From a virus: 21,152 bases of DNA. Shown piece after piece: positions 3,661-21,152 of the stretch. The DNA lies in IMG/VR virus record IMGVR_UViG_3300048588_000279, positions 1 through 21,152 of that record. One strand, written 5' to 3'. A program made the translations under genes and the position numbers. Within the stretch, counting starts at the first letter, position 1. Each line of letters begins with the position of its first letter. The notes below the pieces were generated by a model that was given only the letters and a program-made list of their open reading frames with translations, was not told the DNA's origin and searched no databases.

Positions 3661-5115
3661 TTAGATCGCGCGGCCCGAGAGCCGTGCGATTTCGCGGATG
3701 GCGTCCTGCCCGAGCTGCTCGTAGTAGCCAGTGTTCCGCGAGAACTGGAACGTGATGTGCTCGATCGGCGCCGGGCCTTCGGCGTCGTAGGACACGTAGA
3801 GATGGCCGTCTGCCCAGCTCTCCTTGGTGTTGAGGCCGGCATCGAGCCAGACCCGACCACCCAGGGTCGCCCCCATCGCCTTCCACTTGCGGAGGGCCTG
3901 GTTCACCGTCTCGGCGATGTCCGTCAGCACCTGCAGGCTGAAGGGCTTGTCGATGAACGGTTCGTGCGCCAGCTCGATCGAAGAGATGATCGTGTCGTGC
4001 GCGCGGCGGACCGACCAGAACTTCTTGAGCGGGTCACCCGAGGGAACGCGGGAGCCCCAGAGCTTGAAGCCGCCGGAGGGCGACCGCACGATCGTGGCGA
4101 CCGAGTTCTTGTTGAGGTACTGGCTCTCGACCGAGGGGTCGGACATCGAGTGCTCGACCACGCGGTGGGCGCCGACGATGCCGGCGATGACGTGGTTGGA
4201 GGGCGCTGCCCAGAAGCCTTCGGTGTAGTCGACCTGGGCCTGGAGGCCGGCGACGCGGGCGGAGGCCGGCTCGCTGACGATGGCGTCACCCTTCTGGATC
4301 TTCACGAAGGGGTCGACGATCAGCATGCGATCGCTGTCCCAGTCCAGGCGGTAGGCCACCGCGGCGTCCGAGGTCGAGTTCGGGCCGTCGGCGATGACGC
4401 AGGCGCGCAGGATGTTGGCGATGACCAGCAGCTCGGCGGTCACGGGGTTGGCGACGACGCCAACGACGGCCGTTGCCGTAGCCGTGGTAGTAAATCCACC
4501 GCCGGTCAGCACGACAGTCGGGGCCGAGGTGTAGCCGGAACCCGGGTTGTCGATGATGATGTCGGTGACCTTGCCGCCGGCGACGACCGCGTGGGCCAGT
4601 GCGCCCGAGCCGCCGCCACCGGTGAAGGAGACGGCGGGGGCGGAGGTGTAACCGGCACCCTGCACGCCGACCGTAACGTCGCTGAGCCCGTCGGTCGGGC
4701 GGTGGCCGGTAAAGCCGGGAGCGATGAGCAGCTTGGGGTCGAGGTTCAGCAGGTTCTTCGACTTGCGCAGGGCGTGCGCGCCGGTGCGGGCGGTCGGGCT
4801 GCCGACGATGTTGCCGCAGGTGGCGGCCAGGTTGGCGCCCTCTTCCACGCGGACCACCACGACGGTCTGCGACACGCGGGTGGCCTGGTCGAAGATGGCG
4901 TTGATGGCGTCGAGAAGAGTGCCGGCCTCGCCGAGCCCTTCGGGCACGTCATTGATGCCGTGGATCGCGATCGGCGTGTCCAGCGGCCACAGCAGCTCGT
5001 CGGCGTCCGGGGCGGTGCCCACGAGGCCGATCACGCCGGTGTCGATAGTCGCGACCGGGCGCGGGCCGCTGTCCTTCTCAACGGTCTCAATACCGTGGAG
5101 GTAGATGTCTGCCAT
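3661..5115 (-). CDS. Tail sheath protein (P2 FI family) with a glycine-rich insertion
   Basis: This 484-aa protein has the features of P2 FI sheath: an N-terminal Val/Gly-rich strand region (VATIDTGVIGLVGTAP), the KLLIAPGF strand at about 128-135, and the conserved C-terminal half with SPSGGFKLWGSRVPSG (345-360) and HEPFIDKPFSLQVLTDI (384-400). It is longer than P2 FI, which is about 396 aa. The excess is a block at about residues 139-224 holding two related GxGYTSAP units. The block interrupts the sheath fold directly after LLIAPGF and before TAELLVIANILRACVIADGP, where P2-like sheaths run on continuously. A perfect AAGGAG lies 8 bases before the ATG, fitting high expression. The sheath contracts around the tube to drive it through the envelope. 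Confidence 0.93.
   Translation of the reverse strand: MADIYLHGIETVEKDSGPRPVATIDTGVIGLVGTAPDADELLWPLDTPIAIHGINDVPEGLGEAGTLLDAINAIFDQATRVSQTVVVVRVEEGANLAATCGNIVGSPTARTGAHALRKSKNLLNLDPKLLIAPGFTGHRPTDGLSDVTVGVQGAGYTSAPAVSFTGGGGSGALAHAVVAGGKVTDIIIDNPGSGYTSAPTVVLTGGGFTTTATATAVVGVVANPVTAELLVIANILRACVIADGPNSTSDAAVAYRLDWDSDRMLIVDPFVKIQKGDAIVSEPASARVAGLQAQVDYTEGFWAAPSNHVIAGIVGAHRVVEHSMSDPSVESQYLNKNSVATIVRSPSGGFKLWGSRVPSGDPLKKFWSVRRAHDTIISSIELAHEPFIDKPFSLQVLTDIAETVNQALRKWKAMGATLGGRVWLDAGLNTKESWADGHLYVSYDAEGPAPIEHITFQFSRNTGYYEQLGQDAIREIARLSGRAI
4462..4677 (-). repeat. Two tandem GxGYTSAP repeat units inside the tail sheath
   Basis: Residues 147-178 and 185-218 of the sheath are two copies of one unit of about 32 residues: a short strand, G(A/S)GYTSAP, a strand, then TGGG and an Ala/Thr-rich strand. 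The copies are diverged but line up throughout. The unit is known to me from phage structural proteins and bacterial surface proteins, where it recurs as a beta-rich decoration domain. Confidence 0.75.
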
Positions 5116-18711: not shown

Positions 18712-20760
18712 TTACGCGCCGGGGTGACGGACCATGCCCTTGCTGTCGAGCGGGGCGGCACCGAAGTCGAGGCGAACCTTGACCTCGAGGCCGTCGACGT
18801 CGAAGCCGAGGCGGCTCTCGGTGTACGGGCCTTCGTTGCCTTCGAGGTAGGCGTACTCGATGGTGTCGATCTGCGCCGGGTCGGCCACGAGGTAGAACTC
18901 GGTGGCGGACTTCTGCGACAGGCGACCTTCGACGATCGGCTTCAGCTTGCGCATGCTCTCGGGCGTCACGTTGCCCGGCACGTTCGGCTGGAACGAGCCC
19001 ATCAGCTGCTCGGCCTTGAGCTCGAGCTCGGTCGGCAGAAGCACGAAGGCCGGACGGAGGTTCAGCACCGTCTTGTTGTCGAGGTCGAGCTGCTTGCCCA
19101 TCAGGGTGCGGCCGGCCGCAAGCGAGTCGACGCCGAAGGCGCCGCCGCCCGAGGCGATGTTGGCGTGATCGGCGTGGAACAGCGCCTTGCCGTCCGACAT
19201 CTTCACGTTGTTCGTGATGACGCCCCAGACCGTGTCGCTCTCGAGATTCGCGACGGCCTTACCGAACTGACCGGGGAGGTCGGTGAAGGCGCCGAGGTCG
19301 TCGTTGATCAGCACCTGGCGAGTGACGGCCACAACACGACCATAGGTCGCGATCTTGTAGCTTTCCTTGCCTTCGGTCAGGTTCGTGCGCTTGAACTCGC
19401 CGCTCTCGTTGACCTTGAGCAGCTCGCCGGCGCCGCCCAGACGGACGCGGGTCATTTCCTTGAAGTCGCGGGCGGTGGCCTGCTTGCAGAACTCGCGCCA
19501 GGTCTGCGGCATCGCCTGGTAGGCGGCAAGCAGGGTGCGATTCGTGACGCCCTCGAGGATGATCGGGAAGTCCGAGGTCGACATGAACGAGCGCTTGGCG
19601 ATCTCGTCGTAGGTCATGCCACGAACGTTCACGCCCTGCTCGCGCAGCGACTCGCGGGCCATTTCGATGAGCGACAGGCCACGATACTGGCGGCCGGCGT
19701 CGGTCAGCTTGGTGCGGGCCGGGGAAGCGCGGTTCAGGAGCGCGTTGGTCATCGCCTCACGGCGGGTCTCGACCTCGTCCTGCTGCGCGCCGCGCACGGT
19801 GGCATCAACCATCGGCACGATCGGCTGGCGGCTCTGGCGGGCCTCGATGCCATCGAGGATCGCATTGCGGAACGACTGCACGTCGCTGCCGTCGGCGATG
19901 GCGGCGTCGCGAATGGCGTCGGTCAGGCCGTGGCGCGCGGCCAGCGTCATGATGGTCGACACGCGGGTGCGCTCGGCGGTGCGGATGGCGTCCTGGTCGA
20001 CTGCCGGAGCGGCGACGGGGGCGGCCACCGGAGCAGCGCGGGTCTCGACGACCGGGGCAACCGGAGCAGCGACCGGGGCCGGAGCAGCGGTCACGGCAGC
20101 GGCGGCACGCGCCGCTTCGGCGGCCGCGATCTCTTCAGGGGTCATAGTCTCTTCCTTGGGTTCGGCCGCGGCAGCGGCTTCAGTGGTGTCGTCGCGGGTG
20201 ACGACTTCGACGTCGTAGACGCCTTCGGGCTCCCGGCGCGCATGAGCGCCGGGATCAGCGGGAATGGGCACCGCGGAGATTTCCATCGGTTCCCAGTCGG
20301 TGGCGCGGAGGGTGGGCAGCTTCTCGCCGTCGCCCTCGACCTTTTCGTAGCGGTGGATCTTGTAGCCAACGCTGATGAGCAGCGGGATGCCGTCGCGGGT
20401 GTCCTGGAGGATCCGCTCAGCTTCATCGCTGCGGGAGAACTTCACCTTGGCGAGGCCCTTGCCCTTCTCGACGCGGGCCGAACCGGGCACCACCGCGCCA
20501 AGGCGGGAGCCCATCGACCAGCTGTCGTGGGTGTCAAGGAACGCCGCGCCGGCGTTGAGGCGTTCGAGCCGGATGGACTTGGGATCCATGTCCAGCTCTT
20601 CCATGAAGAAGCCCTCGTCCCAGCTGTATCGCCGGACGGCCGCACCGGCGGCGAAGATCACCTCCACCGTGCGGTCGTCCAGGTTCACAGTGTCGGACCG
20701 GACCTCGAGAGCGAGGCGGCCGTCGTCGACCCGCACGCTCTGACCAGTCTTCTTGGTCAT
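18712..20760 (-). CDS. Fused prohead protease and major capsid protein
   Basis: This 682-aa protein joins two functions. Residues 1 to about 190 form an HK97/S78-like prohead protease, with likely catalytic His78 (FLDTHDSW) and Ser130 (LLISVGYKI) and the PMEISAVPIPADPGA strand. Residues about 194-254 are an Ala/Pro-rich linker. Residues about 260-682 are a capsid protein of the Mu gpT-like type, with EMARESLREQGVNVRG, TYGRVVAVTRQVLINDDLGA and the DGKALFHADHAN motif. The fusion replaces separate protease, scaffold and capsid genes; such fusions are known in prophages. Maturation would require self-cleavage near the linker. It overlaps the portal stop by ATGA. An in-frame ATG with a good Shine-Dalgarno lies at residue 206 (20145), so a shorter scaffold-capsid product is possible. 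Confidence 0.92.
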   Translation of the reverse strand: MTKKTGQSVRVDDGRLALEVRSDTVNLDDRTVEVIFAAGAAVRRYSWDEGFFMEELDMDPKSIRLERLNAGAAFLDTHDSWSMGSRLGAVVPGSARVEKGKGLAKVKFSRSDEAERILQDTRDGIPLLISVGYKIHRYEKVEGDGEKLPTLRATDWEPMEISAVPIPADPGAHARREPEGVYDVEVVTRDDTTEAAAAAEPKEETMTPEEIAAAEAARAAAAVTAAPAPVAAPVAPVVETRAAPVAAPVAAPAVDQDAIRTAERTRVSTIMTLAARHGLTDAIRDAAIADGSDVQSFRNAILDGIEARQSRQPIVPMVDATVRGAQQDEVETRREAMTNALLNRASPARTKLTDAGRQYRGLSLIEMARESLREQGVNVRGMTYDEIAKRSFMSTSDFPIILEGVTNRTLLAAYQAMPQTWREFCKQATARDFKEMTRVRLGGAGELLKVNESGEFKRTNLTEGKESYKIATYGRVVAVTRQVLINDDLGAFTDLPGQFGKAVANLESDTVWGVITNNVKMSDGKALFHADHANIASGGGAFGVDSLAAGRTLMGKQLDLDNKTVLNLRPAFVLLPTELELKAEQLMGSFQPNVPGNVTPESMRKLKPIVEGRLSQKSATEFYLVADPAQIDTIEYAYLEGNEGPYTESRLGFDVDGLEVKVRLDFGAAPLDSKGMVRHPGA
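20143..20157 (-). promoter_or_regulatory. Possible internal ribosome binding site and start within the capsid fusion
   Basis: AAGGA at 20157-20153 lies 7 bases before an in-frame ATG (residue 206 of the fusion), in the sequence PKEETMTPEE. Spacing and core are as good as those of the real starts in this window. Translation from here would give a 477-aa protein lacking the protease, keeping linker and capsid domain. Confidence 0.45.
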
Positions 20761-21152
20761 GCTGCTACCTTCTGCTTGGCGGCCGGCTTCTTGGCCGGCG
20801 CCTTCTTTGGGGTGGTCTTCGCTGCGGGCTTGGCGGCCGCAGCGGGCTTTTTCCCCTCGGTCGGCTTGTCGCCTTCCTCTGGGTCGGCCTCGCCGTCACC
20901 GACATCGCTCGACATCTGTGCGAGGCCCTGCTGCGTGGTGTAGCGGGGGTCGCTGTCGAGGATGATGCCGAAGTCGTCGAGGAGGAGGTTGACCGCGGCG
21001 ATCTCGTCGAGCACCTCGTCGGGGTCGTAGCCGTAGGAGGACACGACGTCCTTCCACGACTTCAGGCCCGCGCGGATGGCGAGGATGTCGGCCTTCACGT
21101 CGTCGATCGGGTTGATGAACTCGAACTTGGGCGGCACCCACTTCACCGGGAT
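20757..21152 (-). CDS. Portal protein, lambda gpB family (C-terminus only)
   Basis: The window holds the last 131 residues of this gene; the frame is open to the right edge and the real start is outside. Residues seen, KWVPPKFEFINPIDDVKADI followed by AIRAGLKSWKDVVSSYGYDP and DEVLDEIAA, match the conserved end of lambda-type portal proteins. The last 33 residues are a Lys/Ala/Pro tail with repeated KPAAK-like units (20760-20858), preceded by an acidic stretch (GDGEADPEEGD). The portal is the dodecameric ring through which DNA enters and leaves the head. It overlaps the protease/capsid gene by ATGA. A GTG at 21146 is internal and not the start. Confidence 0.87.
   Translation of the reverse strand: MPVKWVPPKFEFINPIDDVKADILAIRAGLKSWKDVVSSYGYDPDEVLDEIAAVNLLLDDFGIILDSDPRYTTQQGLAQMSSDVGDGEADPEEGDKPTEGKKPAAAAKPAAKTTPKKAPAKKPAAKQKVAA

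Follow-up and report, generated by a model that had tools for sequence, protein, structure and literature searches.

The window analysed here, a 21,152-base stretch that is the whole of an IMG/VR virus record, encodes a prohead protease, a scaffold region and a major capsid domain in a single ORF. This arrangement raises the question of how the protease is dosed, because a shell is built from hundreds of capsid subunits, and every one of them would carry its own protease into a small cavity. The original prediction answered this question with a nested in-frame start inside the fusion gene.

The ORF belongs to the NCBIfam family NF045541 (scaf_prot_MCP2, 'prohead protease/major capsid protein fusion protein'), whose profile is matched over its full length (1-634 of 634) with 751 bits against a curated cut-off of 525. 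It also matches PHROG 4523 (major head and protease protein). The family NF045540 (ClpP-like protease/major capsid fusion, Gifsy-2 type) gives 359 bits, below its cut-off of 475, which places the window protein outside that family. The NF045540 match is confined to residues 198-681, and the stretch common to both fusion families thus begins near the nested start. The full-length ATG (20760-20758) overlaps the stop codon of the upstream ORF (ATGA), the product of which matches portal PHROGs. The genes downstream of the fusion encode a cement protein, baseplate, sheath, tube and tape measure and mark the virus as a contractile-tailed phage. Its closest genome relative lies in a Devosia metagenome bin (79% identity). 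The features of the locus are listed in Table 1.

Table 1. Features of the fusion gene and its nested start (window coordinates)
Feature	Position	Strand	Basis
Prohead protease / scaffold / major capsid fusion ORF, 682 aa	18712..20760	-	NCBIfam NF045541, PHROG 4523
AGAAGG, SD-like motif before the full-length ATG	20768..20773	-	Sequence; SD duplex -4.8, local folding -11.5 kcal/mol
Peptidase_S78-like protease domain (residues about 18-175)	20236..20709	-	AlphaFold2 domain limits; PF04586 in homologues
AAGGA, Shine-Dalgarno (SD) core of the nested start	20153..20157	-	Sequence; surrounding codons identical in 79-86% relatives
Nested in-frame ATG (Met206)	20143..20145	-	Sequence; linker ATG in 64/65 homologue clusters
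Unstructured mRNA around the nested start	20121..20165	-	MFE -2.4 kcal/mol; position sampling, shuffles
Nested ORF, predicted 477-aa scaffold-capsid product, 51.4 kDa	18712..20145	-	ORF sequence
Probable delta-like scaffold domain, helical (residues 256-345)	19726..19995	-	AlphaFold2 helices; scaffold role by analogy
HK97-fold major capsid domain, residues 386-678	18727..19605	-	PF25209 Phage_capsid_4; Foldseek

The protease domain is connected to the scaffold-capsid part via a disordered linker. Of 30 aligned homologues, 17 match Peptidase_S78 (PF04586), and the window protein itself misses an E value of 0.01; through these homologues its protease is probably of the Peptidase_S78 type. In the AlphaFold2 model, residues 188-207 are disordered and are followed by a short helix (208-223) and an Ala/Pro stretch (224-253). 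The capsid domain is preceded by helices at residues 256-276, 281-290, 294-311 and 320-345, and by analogy this modelled region is probably a delta-like scaffold domain. The capsid domain itself is assigned to the HK97-fold major capsid proteins by both profile and fold, with a PF25209 match of 1e-57 and Foldseek matches to the Mu and HK97 capsids at E values of 9e-9 to 2e-8. The nested start had been predicted to lie exactly at the boundary between the protease and the Ala/Pro linker. Its position in the inter-domain linker was confirmed, but in the AlphaFold2 model it is displaced from the end of the protease by about 30 residues.

At the nested start site, the minus strand reads ...GAACCCAAGGAAGAGACTATGACCCCTGAAGAG.... 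As predicted, it contains an AAGGA core, a spacer of 7 nt (20152-20146) and an ATG in frame with the 682-aa ORF, and the resulting nested ORF has the expected length of 477 codons for amino acids. The full-length product would have a mass of 74.0 kDa, compared with 51.4 kDa for the nested one. The internal SD has a moderate duplex energy (-5.4, versus -4.8 at the first start). When the linker codons of the window were permuted, an equal or better SD arose in 21% of the permutations, and the SD motif by itself, judged within the window, is weak evidence. The mRNA structure is more distinctive. Sampling of 304 positions across the gene ranks the nested ATG as the most open, and 198 of 200 shuffles of the stretch of about 47 nt around it fold at least as well. 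An equally open site was found in 0.17% of the linker permutations, and an SD of this strength combined with this openness in none of 3000. Local folding is -2.4 kcal/mol at the internal site versus -11.5 at the first start. On sequence alone, the start signals of the window are predicted to favour more of the short product than of the long one.

Conservation of the site was analysed in 141 full-length fusions from IMG/VR and GTDB genomes, which were found by protein similarity or by an upstream protease motif, so that the start site itself played no part in their selection. This blastp-based set replaced an earlier strict-motif set of 67 genes, and its reach is bounded by the content of IMG/VR and by similarity to one family. 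Anchoring on the conserved protease motif DWEPMEIS was achieved for 139 of the 141 genes, which formed 65 clusters at 80% identity and 38 at 60%. Beyond this motif the linker is not alignable among the fusions, and the first linker ATG, picked blind to the SD, was used as the test ATG. SD energies were calculated with a single generic anti-SD sequence for all genes, and both duplex and folding scores refer to naked RNA, not to mRNA under translation.

An in-frame linker ATG is present in 64 of the 65 clusters, 15-75 codons past the motif (median 36), compared with about 46 calculated from the gene-wide Met rate. The lone exception (L031) has a GTG behind AAGGAG. The mean SD energy at the first linker ATG is -6.9, in contrast to -2.8 at other in-frame ATGs (p 1e-20), at out-of-frame linker ATGs (p 4e-13) and at non-ATG linker positions. 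Local mRNA folding at the nested ATG averages -5.1 kcal/mol versus -11.2 kcal/mol at other ATGs (p 6e-21) and -9.7 kcal/mol at a second set of comparison sites, and the averaged folding profile has a structure minimum centred on the nested ATG. Both single tests also hold at 60% clustering. Strong SD and openness occurred jointly in 49 of the 65 genes, whereas 6.7 were expected from permuted linker codons. The residue after the nested Met is S, T, P, A, D or E in 53 of 64 cases (321 of 627 for comparison; p 6e-7). The conserved nested signal, as read from these genes, far exceeds chance. Conservation in homologous fusions was the point at which the original prediction had declared itself open to refutation, and it withstood this analysis: a start-like ATG with an SD and open mRNA was found at the corresponding place in the linker of nearly all the divergent fusion genes, those of cultured phages included.

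The SD is present in three reading registers (36, 13 and 6 genes), and the residues encoding it differ (KE, QE, EE, GG, RR and others). Its occurrence in all three registers indicates that it is kept as nucleotides and not as amino acids. Among close relatives, the codons around the ATG are identical between the window and both L003 and L081 at 15 of 15 informative positions, versus gene-wide values of 81% and 64%. A synonymous-codon control gave a mean of -6.9 versus -5.3 overall (p 1e-6), and this control is conservative because the SD may itself dictate the Lys/Glu residues. It was dropped as support for the window alone, where the SD is weaker than that expected from random synonymous codons for Lys-Glu-Glu (p 0.97).

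In a minority of homologues, such as L132 and L107, the first linker ATG is preceded by a weak SD, and several of this minority offer a further candidate start. In L202 (IMGVR_UViG_3300009593_000353), the linker ATG has an SD of -4.3, and an in-frame GTG 13 codons on stands behind AGGAGG (-12.1); here the GTG may be the true nested start. L025, L027 and L013 have little SD at the nested site and at their other genes as well. A relative of L025, L083, comes from Foetidibacter, which we take to be a member of Bacteroidota.

These observations bear on the readings that dispense with a nested start. The SD-ATG could be a by-product of the Lys/Glu-rich linker in a gene from which only the full-length fusion is made, with the protease cleaving itself off after assembly. 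The protease is indeed encoded in the same chain, KEE codons easily yield AAGGA-like strings, and the 21% figure leaves the window SD alone within chance. A coding by-product is nevertheless improbable, given an SD found in three registers with different amino acids, placed at the ATG and not elsewhere in the linker and coinciding with the mRNA-structure minimum, the joint excess of 49 genes over 6.7, and the existence of split relatives. SD-like strings have also been said to slow ribosomes, although this is contested, and the AlphaFold2 model places the SD at a domain boundary. The internal SD might on this basis serve as a translational pause that gives the protease time to fold ahead of the capsid part, with no initiation. 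Such a pause would need neither an ATG at start spacing, nor a start-like second residue, nor open mRNA, all of which were found; moreover, L025 and L013, whose genes all show little SD, retain the ATG in a fully open state. A pause in place of initiation is very hard to credit.

The nested start could alternatively be real and yet yield a minor or regulatory product, the protease:capsid ratio being set mainly by the fusion. This is unlikely, although the moderate SD of the window fits it. Among 11 cultured S78-type phages, the internal SD averages -7.3 versus -3.5 at the annotated start, with similar openness. The internal SD is the stronger in nine of the 11, and in the other two, RcKemmy and Pd_22F, the first start roughly equals or surpasses it. 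In the window, the far more open internal site also speaks against a minor role. The gene is very probably a dual-product capsid gene, in which a real nested start would supply scaffold-capsid subunits in excess of the protease. GenBank records list the full-length product alone, which counts against this reading.

Relatives in which the protease and capsid genes are separate have their boundary at the same place. In L033 and L034, the end of the protease ORF is followed about 100 bases on by a separate scaffold-capsid ORF, whose start in L033 stands behind a clear AGGAG. In Dulem virus 34 and the gut phage clone L240, the protease stop and the capsid start lie within a few bases of each other, and the Dulem virus 34 stop shares bases with a strong GAGGAGG. 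The two split groups adjoin different fused relatives in the tree. Two independent splits were not taken as proven, the tree being formally compatible with one origin. The scaffold-capsid ORFs of L033 (3687-5333) and L034 (3727-5505) have a hydrophobic, membrane-segment-like N-terminus (MKFVNKRAALAIGFGLAAVVICIVFAG and MKSAKRFGLMLALPLAIGLFALFAL, respectively), which is odd for a capsid precursor. The gene of Paenibacillus phage Pd_22F (L231, 1456-3498), placed with support as sister to the split genes of Dulem virus 34 and L240, is fused, and its nested ATG carries an SD of -10.6; the fused and split states thus stand close together.

The same junction is observed in fusions with a different protease. 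L241 (MT835566.1, 2143-4314) combines a ClpP-type protease with a capsid part that is 54% identical to that of the S78-type Bordetella phage PBb001, and both have an SD-ATG at the protease-capsid junction. By sequence comparison, L241 is a protease swap with its junction next to the SD-ATG. In all 20 clusters of ClpP-type fusions, an ATG lines up with codon 220 of F10 and is preceded by an SD, and no other conserved ATG is as open (-4.0 versus a mean of -10.0); Gifsy-2 has the same SD and site at codon 221. The amino acids around this ATG are conserved too, and protein-level constraint could account for its conservation. Two further SD-ATGs of this family, at the conserved ETWM motif and, upstream of it, at F10 codon 146, were rejected as starts; both lie inside the protease domain, and their mRNA is not open. 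Nested starts are likely to be general in tripartite protease-scaffold-capsid genes of the S78 or ClpP type, including Gifsy-2 and F10, with start strengths that would set the protease:capsid ratio and with swaps and splits occurring at the start.

A same-frame nested start inside the protease gene is present in phage Mu (I/Z). The C/Nu3 arrangement of lambda is of the same kind (Shaw and Murialdo 1980, as cited in PMC8508860). In both phages, many copies of a shorter product are obtained from one gene, as proposed here; however, their nested product is the scaffold only, and the capsid has a separate gene. The likeness to lambda drawn in the original prediction holds for the conserved in-frame start with a ribosome-binding site inside the protease gene and fails for the product, since the nested ORF of the window includes the capsid domain. 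In its product, the window would by analogy match HK97, where gp5 joins an N-terminal scaffold (delta) domain to the capsid and gp4 is the protease (PMC8508860, PMC10275583). The HK97 protease is a separate gene, whereas that of the window is fused and set apart solely by the nested start.

Fusion genes of this type are already known. One gene for protease, scaffold and capsid is described for Gifsy-2 (a 2010 study, referenced via PMC8538268) and for MD8-like Pseudomonas phages (PMC8508860), and the fusion of Rhodobacter RcC phages has been reported (PMC8601537). The Gifsy-2 and MD8 genes resemble that of the window in having an HK97-fold capsid, a homologous scaffold-capsid part and an equivalent nested SD-ATG, but their protease is ClpP-like whereas that of the window is S78-like. 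A term search of the MD8 paper (PMC8508860) returned no mention of an internal start. The name of NF045541 refers to a single fusion product, and a second product is absent from the description shown. We found no report of a nested start in protease-capsid fusions in the accessible literature, outside which lie the original Gifsy-2 description and most subscription papers; the nested start appears to be unreported.

From these comparisons, we infer that ribosomes use the site, that the short form is in excess and that cleavage follows assembly. Ribosomes that load at the first start, where it overlaps the stop of the portal gene, would make the 682-aa protease-scaffold-capsid protein, and those at the internal SD and ATG (20145) would make the 477-aa scaffold-capsid protein. 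The shell would consist mostly of the short form with a minority of full-length subunits, which would carry the protease in through their common scaffold and capsid parts, and the protease would remove the scaffold at maturation. A conserved nested start would resolve the puzzle of the protease load and provide a simple handle for studying it in laboratory strains. It also predicts two products from genes annotated with one, including those of well-known phages. Fused and separate protease and capsid genes could interconvert by a stop gained or lost at one place.

Elsewhere in the window, the tail sheath protein (3661-5115, minus strand) contains an additional stretch rich in Gly, Ser and Ala, in which the motif GxGYTSAP recurs (VQGAGYTSAPAVSFTGGGGSG... 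NPGSGYTSAPTVVLTGGG). This stretch lies between an N-terminal match to gp18 domain III (residues 26-90) and the sheath domain (residues 236-356) and looks like an inserted repeat.
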